Source of the DNA: an uncultured Tateyamaria sp.
GTDB lineage: Bacteria; Pseudomonadota; Alphaproteobacteria; Rhodobacterales; Rhodobacteraceae
Assembly: GCF_947503705.1 (NCBI RefSeq)
Contig: NZ_CANNES010000008.1
Span: 124,001-188,000 of the forward strand
Direction of reading: 5' to 3'
Length of the DNA: 64,000 nt
The notes under the pieces were generated by a model. The model searched no databases and was not told the DNA's origin. It saw nothing but the letters and a program-made list of their open reading frames with translations. Position 1 is the stretch's first letter. Each line of letters begins with the position of its first letter. The position numbers were made by a program, and so were the translations under genes. This document shows, in pieces, positions 32,532 through 35,202 of this stretch.

Positions 32532-33785
32532 ATGACCCTGAGCTTTGCCCCGGACGTGATCGAGATGTGGCCGCTGGCCAGGCTCGAGCCCTATGCGAAG
32601 AACGCAAAGATGCATGGCGCGGATCAGGTCGCGAAGATCGCCGCCAGCATGGCCGAGTTCGGCTGGACGGTTCCGTGTCTTGTCGCCGACGACGGCGAGC
32701 TGATCGCTGGCCATGGCCGGGTGTTGGCCGCCACGCAACTGGGGCTGTCCGAGGCCCCGGTGATCGTTCTGGGCCATCTGACCGAGGCGCAGCGCCGGGC
32801 CTACCGGATTGCTGACAACAAGCTGACGGAACTCGGGACCTGGGATGAGGCGCTGCTGTCGGCCGAGCTGAACGACCTGCTGGCCGAGGACTACGATCTG
32901 TCGCTGATTGGTTTCGACGATGCCGAACTCGAAGCGCTGTTGGCCGGTGAGGTCGACCCCGAAACCGCGTCCCGAGAGGGCGAGGACGATGTTCCCGAAG
33001 CCCCCGAAACCCCGATCAGCCGTCCCGGCGATCTCTGGGTGCTTGGCAAGCATCGATTGCTCTGCGGGGACGCGACCGTGGCCACGGACGTCGAGCGACT
33101 GCTCGGCGATGTGACACCACTGCTGATGGTGACCGACCCGCCTTACGGCGTCGACTACGATCCCGGCTGGCGCAACAAGGCAGGCGCCGCCGCGACCAAG
33201 CGCACCGGCAAGGTGCTGAATGACGACCGCGCTGATTGGCGCGAGGCCTGGGCGTTGTTCCCTGGCGATGTGGCCTATGTTTGGCACGGCGCGTTGCATG
33301 CGACGACGGTCGCGGAAAGCCTCGAAGCCTCCGGCTTCAACATCCGGTCCCAGATCATCTGGGCCAAGGATCGCCTGGTGCTGAGCCGCGGCGATTATCA
33401 CTGGCAGCACGAGCCGTGCCTCTATGCCGTCAAGAAATCCGGCAAGGGCCATTGGGCCGGCGACCGCAAACAGACAACGCTTTGGCAAATCGCCAACAAA
33501 GATCAGGACGCTGAAACCGTACACGGGACGCAGAAGCCCGTCGAATGCATGCGTCGGCCAATCCTGAACAATTCCAGCCCCGGGCAAGCGGTCTACGAGC
33601 CCTTCATGGGCTCCGGAACCACGCTGATCGCGGCCGAAACCACGGGCCGTGTGTGTTTCGGGATCGAATTGAACCCGGCCTATGTCGATGTCGCCGTCCA
33701 GCGGTGGCAGCAGTTCACCGGCCAGGAGGCCGTGCTGGACGGGACCGGCGAGACCTTCGCCGATCTGACGGCCAACCCGCGCTGA
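32532..33785 (+). CDS. ParB-domain/N6-adenine (or N4-cytosine) DNA methyltransferase fusion
   Basis: 417 residues. Residues 1-130 are a ParB/Srx-like domain (LIAGHGRVLAATQLG, HLTEAQRRAYRIADNKL). The methylase part has TDPPYGVDY (about 199-207) before PFMGSGTTLIAA (about 355-367), the order of beta-class enzymes. Common in phages, where it protects phage DNA from host restriction, relevant next to the host's type I system. It has no clear ribosome site. No restriction partner is encoded. Confidence 0.9.
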   Translation: MTLSFAPDVIEMWPLARLEPYAKNAKMHGADQVAKIAASMAEFGWTVPCLVADDGELIAGHGRVLAATQLGLSEAPVIVLGHLTEAQRRAYRIADNKLTELGTWDEALLSAELNDLLAEDYDLSLIGFDDAELEALLAGEVDPETASREGEDDVPEAPETPISRPGDLWVLGKHRLLCGDATVATDVERLLGDVTPLLMVTDPPYGVDYDPGWRNKAGAAATKRTGKVLNDDRADWREAWALFPGDVAYVWHGALHATTVAESLEASGFNIRSQIIWAKDRLVLSRGDYHWQHEPCLYAVKKSGKGHWAGDRKQTTLWQIANKDQDAETVHGTQKPVECMRRPILNNSSPGQAVYEPFMGSGTTLIAAETTGRVCFGIELNPAYVDVAVQRWQQFTGQEAVLDGTGETFADLTANPR

Positions 33786-33789
33786 GGCG

Positions 33790-34965
33790 ATGCATGACCT
33801 GGCTTTACATCCCTCCGGACGTGCTTCCGGAGCCGGCGACCTGTTCGGCCTCTCGCTCTGCTCCGGTGCAGGCGGGCTGGACCTCGGGCTCACCATCGCC
33901 TTGCCCGGATATCGAACTGTGGGCCATGTCGAACGGGAAACCTACGCCGCGGCCATCCTCGTGGCACGGATGGAAGAGGCGGCCCTGGATTGCGCGCCTG
34001 TCTGGGACGACGTTGCCAGCTTCGACGGCCGCCCGTGGCGCGGCACGGTGGACATCGTCACTGCGGGCTATCCGTGCCAGCCTTTCTCCGTCGCGGGCAA
34101 ACGCCGGGGCGCGGACGATCCGCGCCACCTCTGGCCCCATGTCGCGCGCATCATTGGCGAGGTCGAGCCGCCCTTCGTCTTCCTCGAGAATGTCGCCCAT
34201 CATCTCCGCCTCGGCTTCCCCGAAGTCGCCGCAGGACTGGTCGGCATGGGCTACCGCCTTGCGGCGGGCCTCTTCACGGCGGCGGAAGTCGGCGCGCCCC
34301 ACAAGCGCGAGCGGCTCTTCATCCTCGCGCACCGAGAGGACTGCGAACTGGCCGACCCCGCGCGCCTGCTCCGGGACCCGGTCCAGTGGCGGGAACCGGA
34401 CCGAGATGCTCCGGCTCTGGCCGACGCCCCGCGCCAGCGCCAACGAGAACCGGCAGACGAAACCGACGCCCTCACAGGAAGCGGGCAAGCACGGGATGAA
34501 CCTGGCGACCTCGGCCGCGATGTGGCCGACGCCGCAAACCGACAGTTTTCGCAGCCGGGGCGGCGCCCGGAGACACGAGAAGGGTCTCGATGGCATGGCG
34601 CGGGACTGGCCAACGCCGATGGCAACCGACGGCAACAAGCCGAGCGCGGGCAATCGCAAGTCCGCCGACCTGACCCGTGCCAGCCAGATGTGGATGACGC
34701 CGACGGCCCGGGATCACAAGGACGGCGCGACCACATTGGCGAACACCCCGGTGAACGGCTTGCTTGGCCGCCAGGTCCTGGTGACGCCGACGGCTGGGAG
34801 CGATACCTCCGAGCCGCGCCGGACGCTGAACCCAGCATTCGTCGAGGCTCTGATGGGCTGGCCCACCGGGTGGACCGCCTTCGGCTCTGTGGCAACGGCG
34901 TGGTCCCATTGGTTGCCGCGCATGCGCTGCGAACTCTTGCAGCTCAATTGCTGGCTGATGGCTGA
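33790..34965 (+). CDS. C5-cytosine DNA methyltransferase, overlapped along its length by a second open frame
   Basis: 391 residues. Motif I SLCSGAGGLDLGL (about 21-33), motif IV GYPCQPFS with catalytic Cys (about 96), motif VI ENV (about 136), motif VIII region KRERLFILA (about 173-181) and motif X LCGNGVVPLVAAHALRTL (about 365-382) are all in this frame. The target-recognition region between VIII and X is unusual: poor in hydrophobic residues and built of repeated LADP, LADAP, VADA and LANAD units. There the +1 frame is open and looks more protein-like, and third-position GC favours it. Either this frame encodes the full enzyme with a disordered insert, or a frameshifted form is also made. 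Starts 4 bases after the adenine methylase stop. Confidence 0.85.
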   Translation: MHDLALHPSGRASGAGDLFGLSLCSGAGGLDLGLTIALPGYRTVGHVERETYAAAILVARMEEAALDCAPVWDDVASFDGRPWRGTVDIVTAGYPCQPFSVAGKRRGADDPRHLWPHVARIIGEVEPPFVFLENVAHHLRLGFPEVAAGLVGMGYRLAAGLFTAAEVGAPHKRERLFILAHREDCELADPARLLRDPVQWREPDRDAPALADAPRQRQREPADETDALTGSGQARDEPGDLGRDVADAANRQFSQPGRRPETREGSRWHGAGLANADGNRRQQAERGQSQVRRPDPCQPDVDDADGPGSQGRRDHIGEHPGERLAWPPGPGDADGWERYLRAAPDAEPSIRRGSDGLAHRVDRLRLCGNGVVPLVAAHALRTLAAQLLADG

Positions 34966-34981
34966 AGGGGGGCCAGTATGA
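33794..34981 (+). CDS. Overlapping +1-frame ORF across the cytosine methylase gene (WPTP-repeat protein or frameshift extension)
   Basis: 395 residues if started at ATG 33794, four bases after the methylase start; the frame is open further upstream. Its 5' half is Ser/Arg-rich and looks like a shadow of the methylase. From about 34340 it carries NWPTPRA, LWPTPRA, MWPTPQT, DWPTPMA, MWMTPTA and VTPTA repeats and then LNPAFVEALMGWPTGW and WLPRMRCELL. I counted about 85% G/C at third positions in this part against roughly 60% for the methylase frame. Its stop overlaps the next start as ATGA, the coupling used throughout this phage. It may be a separate protein, or the C-terminus of a +1 frameshifted methylase. 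Confidence 0.5.
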   Translation: MTWLYIPPDVLPEPATCSASRSAPVQAGWTSGSPSPCPDIELWAMSNGKPTPRPSSWHGWKRRPWIARLSGTTLPASTAARGAARWTSSLRAIRASLSPSRANAGARTIRATSGPMSRASLARSSRPSSSSRMSPIISASASPKSPQDWSAWATALRRASSRRRKSARPTSASGSSSSRTERTANWPTPRACSGTRSSGGNRTEMLRLWPTPRASANENRQTKPTPSQEAGKHGMNLATSAAMWPTPQTDSFRSRGGARRHEKGLDGMARDWPTPMATDGNKPSAGNRKSADLTRASQMWMTPTARDHKDGATTLANTPVNGLLGRQVLVTPTAGSDTSEPRRTLNPAFVEALMGWPTGWTAFGSVATAWSHWLPRMRCELLQLNCWLMAEGGPV

Positions 34982-35202
34982 AACAGTCGCGCCTCATGTC
35001 GCTGATCGAGGCCGTCGCCAACGTGGCGGTTGGCTACGGCGTGGCGGTCATCACGCAGATCCTGATCTTCCCGATCTTCGGGCTGCACACGACTCTGGCG
35101 CAGAACCTGAAAATGGGCGCGATCTTCACGGTGGTATCGATAGCGCGGTCCTTCGCGCTGCGCCGCTTGTTCGAGGTGATCCGGATGCGACACGCCAAAT
35201 GA
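34978..35202 (+). CDS. Small membrane protein (DUF7220-like), two transmembrane segments
   Basis: 74 residues with hydrophobic segments at about 12-35 (VANVAVGYGVAVITQILIF) and 45-60, short basic C-terminus (RRLFEVIRMRHAK). A small two-helix phage protein of unknown role; holin-like features but distant from the lysis genes. Its ATG overlaps the stop of the +1-frame ORF, not that of the methylase frame. Confidence 0.7.
   Translation: MKQSRLMSLIEAVANVAVGYGVAVITQILIFPIFGLHTTLAQNLKMGAIFTVVSIARSFALRRLFEVIRMRHAK

Follow-up and report, generated by a model that had tools for sequence, protein, structure and literature searches.

A phage cytosine-5 methyltransferase gene whose two overlapping reading frames probably encode complementary halves of one enzyme

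Results

Layout of the locus

The gene considered here is a DNA (cytosine-5) methyltransferase (C5-methyltransferase) gene in a 64,000-nucleotide stretch of DNA from an uncultured Tateyamaria sp. (the window, which is 124001-188000 of contig G000:C8 in a 4.43-Mb genome). It can be read in two frames, frame 0 ("alpha") and the +1 frame ("beta"), both of which are open over its full length. The features of the locus are as follows, in window positions.

33784-33796, + strand: twin start, with GAGG at 33784-33787, the alpha ATG at 33790 and the beta ATG at 33794
33790-34965, + strand: alpha, frame-0 C5-methyltransferase open reading frame (ORF), 391 amino acids, ATG 33790 to TGA 34965, motifs I-VIII and X
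33794-34981, + strand: beta, +1-frame ORF, 395 amino acids, ATG 33794 to TGA 34981, WPTP repeats and motif-IX-like segment
33841-34353, + strand: segment with frame 0 under selection (motifs I-VIII), from codon-position entropy and the ratio of nonsynonymous to synonymous rates (dN/dS)
33853-33876, + strand: motif I, SLCSGAGG, frame 0
34072-34089, + strand: motif IV, PCQPFS, with the catalytic cysteine, frame 0
34349-34816, + strand: recognition segment of beta, putative target recognition domain (TRD), with an in-frame counterpart in locus L093
34354-34761, + strand: segment with the +1 frame under selection, frame 0 forming here a stop-free linker of no sequence conservation, predicted to be disordered
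34762-34965, + strand: C-terminal part of alpha, conserved again, with motif X (LCGNGVVP) at 34885-34908
34817-34876, + strand: motif-IX-like RRTLNPAFVEALMGWPTGWT, +1 frame
34978-34981, + strand: ATGA, the stop of beta over the start of the next gene (34978-35202)

A preliminary description of this DNA, made from its letters alone, had placed motifs I-VIII and a terminal motif X in frame 0. Both the sequence and the Pfam profile agree with this: the match to PF00145 is confined to amino acids 21-188 (3e-32), and PCQP is invariant across 35 aligned alphas. Motifs I and IV in alpha are numbered in the usual way for C5-methyltransferases. The +1 frame had been described as open over the whole gene, and its stop-to-stop span is indeed 33515-34981. 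It contains WPTP at 34349, 34418, 34523 and 34607 and WMTP at 34691, and the LADP, LADA, VADA, LANA and VDDA units of frame 0 lie on the same bases, so that the repeats noted earlier in the two frames are a single pattern read in each of them. In PHROGs, two families match the +1 segment from 34334 on, phrog_1008 (named DNA methyltransferase, 6.7e-15) and phrog_27243 (unknown function, 2.8e-13). Within it, RRTLNPAFVEALMGWPTGWT, with the motif-IX-like LNPAFVEALMGWPTGWT, is presumably motif IX plus flank, by analogy with the canonical motif IX; Pfam leaves it unnamed, and its end uses the same bases as the conserved SDGLAHRVDRL of frame 0. Frame 0 contains no conserved target-recognition region, and the recognition segment and motif IX sit in the +1 frame. 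The TRD, motif IX and motif X are thus not all found in one frame as in the single-chain PF00145 layout, and a canonical single-chain enzyme was rejected for this reason.

Third-position guanine plus cytosine (G+C) content over the 3' part is 0.88 in the +1 frame and 0.65 in frame 0, near the 85 and 60% estimated in the preliminary description, while the reversal claimed for the 5' part is hardly present (0.77 vs 0.79). The ATGA linkage of beta to the next gene is there as described, with the two stops 16 and not 15 bases apart; it is present in 112 of 124 distinct gene copies, in keeping with translation of the +1 frame to its end.

Selection in near homologues

The near set comprises the best 80 of 374 relatives, all from viral contigs and 79-98% identical; together with the window they make 81 sequences, of which 72 distinct ones remained once 9 duplicates had been dropped. 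Codon-position entropy among these 72 places the variation mostly at frame-0 third positions as far as codon ~190 and at frame-0 first positions (the third positions of the +1 frame) in codons ~200-320, where frame-0 third positions vary little; from codon ~360 it returns to frame-0 third positions. dN/dS was computed with OLGenie-like classes, defined by the effect of a change in both frames, over 400 random pairs and with two measures each. For codons 20-180 it is 0.077 and 0.115 in frame 0 and 0.464 and 0.689 in the +1 frame. For codons 195-345 it is 0.060 and 0.201 in the +1 frame and 0.416 and 1.398 in frame 0, and for codons 362-390 it is 0.002 and 0.067 in frame 0 and 0.010 and 0.330 in the +1 frame. 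Windows of ten codons put the first switch at codon 190 and find frame 0 better kept at 330-350, while at codons 350-360, the stretch in which motif IX and SDGLAHRVDRL overlap, both frames are kept, the +1 frame more strictly.

None of the 80 near homologues has a +1 stop between the beta ATG and motif IX; elsewhere, three have one just before the beta ATG, and in L010 the frame ends 30 nucleotides (nt) early. The avoidance of stops can also be counted, with the reservation that related sequences do not give independent counts: in the 3' part, a T that makes a frame-0 stop at a +1 wobble site occurs 1 time in 2251 against 301 expected from the use of T for the same amino acids elsewhere, and in the 5' half, codons that make a +1 stop number 0 of 2042 against 128.6 expected. 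The +2 frame, taken as a control in the 5' half, gives 82 of 1574 against 264.6, which indicates that the expectation is too high; the +1 frame is still at zero. The single T is presumably that of L029, the sole near homologue with a frame-0 stop inside the overlap (codon 252), whose +1 frame is intact. Each frame is kept almost stop-free where the other is under selection. The preliminary description had suggested dual coding and had proposed examining the +1 frame of homologues for stops and purifying selection. With this frame free of stops from its ATG to motif IX in the 80 near homologues, a 3'-part dN/dS of 0.06 and both frames kept open, dual coding is strongly supported by the comparison.

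Recurrence in distant phages and genomes

The arrangement was followed through 294 sequences, namely L001-L293 (from four scans of viral contigs, 14 named phage regions and two loci of the window's own genome) and the window, 292 of which have an alpha match. A regular expression for motif IX finds it in 244 of these loci, in 239 of them in the +1 frame (159 of 164 outside the 80 near loci); motif X is in frame 0 in 233 of the 239, and no X was found in the other 6. The five exceptions are L089 and L093, where everything lies in one frame, and L170, L179 and L253, where a mid-gene insertion or deletion shifts alpha and beta together; these three are candidates for sequencing error or decay. 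Some of the 48 loci negative for the expression were checked individually: a divergent motif IX stands in the +1 frame of L174, L106, L139, L190 and L265, L132 is truncated, L088 consists of tandem genes, and no motif IX was seen on inspection of L250.

Across 158 loci outside the near set, which include near duplicates and the window itself as L095, the recognition segment has 0 frame-0 stops against 530 expected from +1-synonymous shuffles. The corresponding tally for the 5' part begins past the last +1 stop, is zero by construction in the Lactobacillus and coliphage types, and was not used. The hosts of the named two-frame phages include Synechococcus, Acidovorax, Komagataeibacter, Salmonella, Escherichia, Lacticaseibacillus, Klebsiella and Acinetobacter, and some two-frame loci have a G+C content of 35-50%. 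In the Lactobacillus type (22 distinct copies, 49.4% G+C), dN/dS is 0.03 in frame 0 and 0.15 in the +1 frame over the 5' part, and 0.08 in the +1 frame and 0.30 in frame 0 over the recognition segment. The six copies inspected have no +1 stop in codons 51-253, and the +2 frame has 18-26 stops per copy in all 22. In L278, whose recognition segment has 35% G+C, both frames are open against 4.9 (frame 0) and 4.3 stops expected. The entropy table of the Synechococcus type, made from a gappy alignment, gives no clear frame switch and supports nothing.

Within the window's genus, 10 of 20 genomes have a match, its own included, and close homologues also occur in genomes titled Rhodobacterales and other Alphaproteobacteria (best 80 of 225). 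Since close homologues are found both in viral contigs and in alphaproteobacterial genomes, the window gene most probably belongs to a prophage. In E. coli A16, a copy on the chromosome has the two-frame layout with alpha alone annotated. Four further loci were checked for the motif pattern. Of these, L377 shows the two-frame layout. In L378 a canonical LQGFP shares the frame of the PCP motif, in L379 motif X shares that of the PCQ motif, and in L096 PCPPFS alone was seen. This last locus (G000:C8:63323-64036) is a second, distant C5-methyltransferase-like match on the window's contig, at 32% identity. In Klebsiella virus KpV2811 (L091, 1575-2936), the beta frame runs stop-free into a gene with the annotation endonuclease VII domain protein (2478-2936), so that in that phage the two could be fused.

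None of ten annotated records of two-frame phages annotates both frames in full. Alpha alone is annotated in seven and beta alone in two (L081 and L082, where the catalytic frame is unannotated), and the record of Komagataeibacter phage phiKX1 (L084) shows a piece of beta and the end of alpha as separate hypothetical proteins.

One-frame and tandem counterparts

The same parts as those of alpha and beta, but all in one frame, are found in the enzymes of the Mycobacterium phages prophiGD91-2 (L093) and Seagreen (L089), which contain motifs I-VIII, LPTP repeats, MMGWPAGW and a motif-X-like end. L093 aligns with alpha mainly at the two ends (35% over 396 columns, with 61 gaps), and its middle aligns with the +1 segment (30% over 155 columns, 3e-5, from a single comparison of repetitive sequence). 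In Arthrobacter phage TaylorSipht (L088) the parts lie in tandem genes, gp40 (1313-1906), with motifs I-VIII, and gp41 (1950-2669), with LPTP and IX- and X-like motifs, both annotated as DNA methyltransferase and resembling two halves of a single enzyme. The assignment of beta as the small domain belonging with alpha is based mainly on these one-frame and tandem counterparts.

Structure models

The model of alpha, built with 35 sequences, has a mean predicted local distance difference test score (pLDDT) of 59.0 and a predicted template modelling score (pTM) of 0.56. Residues 197-327 and 347-367 are below a pLDDT of 50, while the C-terminal helix (373-390) is at ~85-90. Residues 197-327 are also unconserved between subfamilies, with a frame-0 dN/dS of 0.42 to 1.4. 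Superposition of the model (residues 16-391) on M.HhaI gives a Z-score of 20.6 and a root mean square deviation of 3.6 over 205 of 327 chain residues, and this predicted alignment, C-terminal helix included, is as expected for a large domain without the small domain.

Neighbouring genes

Upstream of the gene, 32532-33785 encodes an N6/N4-type DNA methylase (PF01555, 9.4e-22) with a weak ParB_N match, so that two methyltransferase genes stand in a row. After beta, 34978-35202 is a 74-amino-acid ORF (MKQSRLMSL...).

Discussion

Two subunits from one gene

Taken together, these results make it very probable that alpha and beta, encoded by overlapping genes, are obligate subunits of a single DNA (cytosine-5) methyltransferase. 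Alpha would be the catalytic large domain, made of motifs I-VIII, a stop-free unconserved linker and the motif X helix that closes the large domain, and beta would be the small domain, with the WPTP-repeat recognition segment and motif IX. Initiation at ATG 33790 would yield alpha and initiation at ATG 33794 would yield beta, the two would assemble into one enzyme with one specificity, and this enzyme would mark phage or host DNA.

A near-coincident start of the two ORFs is likely for the window gene. The beta ATG, 4 nt after that of alpha, is present in all 72 distinct homologues, even where alpha residue 2 has changed from H to D or N, and GAGG stands 2 nt before the alpha ATG and 6 nt before the beta ATG. 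An M-WLY-like N-terminus in the +1 frame with a start codon by the alpha start, standing 35 to 71 nt from motif I, is found in 81 of 82 near loci and in 30 of 43 of the Synechococcus type; the counts are 1 of 26 for other window-type loci, 0 of 46 for the Lactobacillus type and 0 of 42 for the coliphage type. When the 80 near loci are set aside, 25 of 28 window-type loci (the window and L095 included) and 41 of 43 of the Synechococcus type have a beta ORF that is already open ahead of the alpha match, but only 1 of 42 coliphage-type and 2 of 46 Lactobacillus-type loci do.

Several observations weigh against the two-subunit interpretation or against parts of it. As regards the start, GAGG is present in part of the near homologues and absent in many. 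The counts of M-WLY-like N-termini have no chance control, and the N-terminus of alpha lies on the same bases. The beta ORF opens ~150-180 nt inside alpha in the Lactobacillus type and 88 nt inside it in phage Golestan, and in L236 and L257 the 5' half contains a +1 stop. Because beta opens inside alpha in the Lactobacillus and coliphage types, and because of the stops in L236 and L257, a twin start cannot apply throughout, and in other types beta must be started internally. As regards selection, the dN/dS values come from random pairs of related sequences and from no tree, one of the two +1 measures is low in the motif-X part too (0.010, the other being 0.33), and frame 0 of L029 is interrupted. 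In the Lactobacillus type, neither frame is seen to be constrained in the slice taken as the motif-IX overlap (3.68 and 1.50, from few changes), and the entropy table lacks a clean frame switch. As regards the small domain, the +1 product has no match in Pfam (E up to 1), NCBIfam or the PDB, and the model of beta alone, built with 59 sequences, is poor (mean pLDDT 50.2, pTM 0.21).

Alternative explanations

The alternative that best survives, although we consider it unlikely, is programmed frameshifting from frame 0 to +1 after motif VIII, perhaps with a return before motif X, which would yield one complete chain. Selection follows such a path (0, +1, 0), and the 5'-half +1 stops of L236 and L257 suit it, only TTG and CTG codons and no ATG lying between these stops and the first WPTP. 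A single frameshift would, however, lose motif X. Moreover, frameshifting requires neither that frame 0 be open in the recognition segment nor that the +1 frame be open in the 5' half, and both are kept open; nor does it account for the conserved beta ATG beside that of alpha. The frameshifted enzyme put forward in the preliminary description is disfavoured on these grounds.

The same description had suggested that one gene could provide two methylase specificities, alpha with a recognition domain of its own and a frameshifted enzyme with another. Two frames are indeed open after motif VIII, and in M.EcoHK31I the predicted TRD is placed in the large subunit (PMC3404938). Residues 197-327 of alpha, on the other hand, are unconserved between subfamilies, evolve nearly freely and are modelled as disordered; a Pfam search for a methyltransferase domain in the +1 product found none, and each frame holds a part that the other lacks. 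With no conserved or confidently folded recognition region in alpha, two specificities were rejected, and we hold them to be very improbable.

It is more improbable still that the pattern is an artefact of codon bias or G+C content with frame 0 alone translated. In the window by itself the openness of the +1 frame is unremarkable, since frame-0 synonymous shuffles leave the 5' half free of stops with a probability of 0.21 and the 3' part with one of 0.55; it is through the comparison across homologues, and not in the window alone, that openness lies far above chance. Over the 3' part, variation is found at frame-0 first positions and hardly at all at third positions, the reverse of what a frame-0 gene would show. 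The artefact was rejected using families of lower G+C: at 49% G+C the Lactobacillus type retains the stronger constraint on the +1 recognition segment (0.08 vs 0.30), and L278 has 0 frame-0 stops in a segment where 4.9 are expected. That mycobacteriophages carry WPTP-like repeats and motif IX in one frame with motifs I-VIII and X contradicts it as well, alongside the selection and low-G+C data. Finally, we give next to no credence to the idea that beta is an insertion of an unrelated gene in another frame, of the kind published for phage ShiLan, whose methylase gene hides an HNH endonuclease (PMC11855218), since the +1 product contains no HNH or other Pfam family (E up to 1; a hidden endonuclease was rejected on this basis), matches phrog_1008, is nearly universal and not patchy in the examined loci, and has an in-frame counterpart within whole enzymes.

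Generality and implications

Whether many phage C5-methyltransferase genes are a symmetric two-frame device is a wider proposal, to which we would give an even chance. It would comprise near-coincident starts and ~1.2 kb read twice, each frame being stop-free filler where the other is selected; both subunits would come from one gene-length, one of them dropped by annotation, and the one-frame ancestor would survive in the mycobacteriophage enzymes. If the two-subunit interpretation is true, cloning the annotated ORF of such phages gives only one half of the enzyme, a possible reason why some phage methyltransferases are inactive or unassigned. It would also be a widespread case of selection alternating between two frames inside one enzyme, and would allow a direct test of how overlapping genes arose from a one-frame ancestor.

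Comparison with known systems

The small subunit of M.EcoHK31I is encoded in another frame inside the gene of the large subunit. This enzyme (YGGCCR) consists of two polypeptides, a large one with motifs I-VIII, X and a predicted TRD and a small one with motif IX, according to PMC3404938, and it is termed naturally split in PMC3439449. The likeness to the window gene, drawn from the published description, is that alpha has motifs I-VIII and X and that motif IX belongs to a second ORF, here judged by conservation and selection. Unlike in M.EcoHK31I, the recognition-type segment lies in the +1 frame, its counterpart in alpha being unconserved and predicted to be disordered, and beta spans the length of alpha and starts at nearly the same point. 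In the two plasmid regions examined, no restriction neighbour of the EcoHK31I kind was seen.

M.AquI is likewise one C5-methyltransferase made of two polypeptides, split otherwise than M.EcoHK31I (PMC3404938), whereas in the window gene the frames are overlapping and alpha retains motif X; the tandem gp40 and gp41 of TaylorSipht resemble the M.AquI type of split. Alpha matches M.HhaI and M.HaeIII in sequence over motifs IV-VIII or I-VIII but, unlike in these monomeric enzymes, the small domain and motif IX are outside its chain. As in ShiLan, a second protein is encoded out of frame in a phage methylase gene, that of ShiLan being a mobile endonuclease and not a part of the enzyme. No description of the present arrangement in phages was found among the matches listed in the literature search, which left subscription papers mostly outside its scope and is no proof of absence in print; the nearest case among those matches was the out-of-frame HNH gene of PMC11855218. 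On the best reading of these analogies, the system would work like M.EcoHK31I without being a plain member of its type, the recognition segment being placed differently. What is new is that the two ORFs overlap over their whole length and start almost together, that the recognition segment belongs to beta, and that the arrangement is so widespread.
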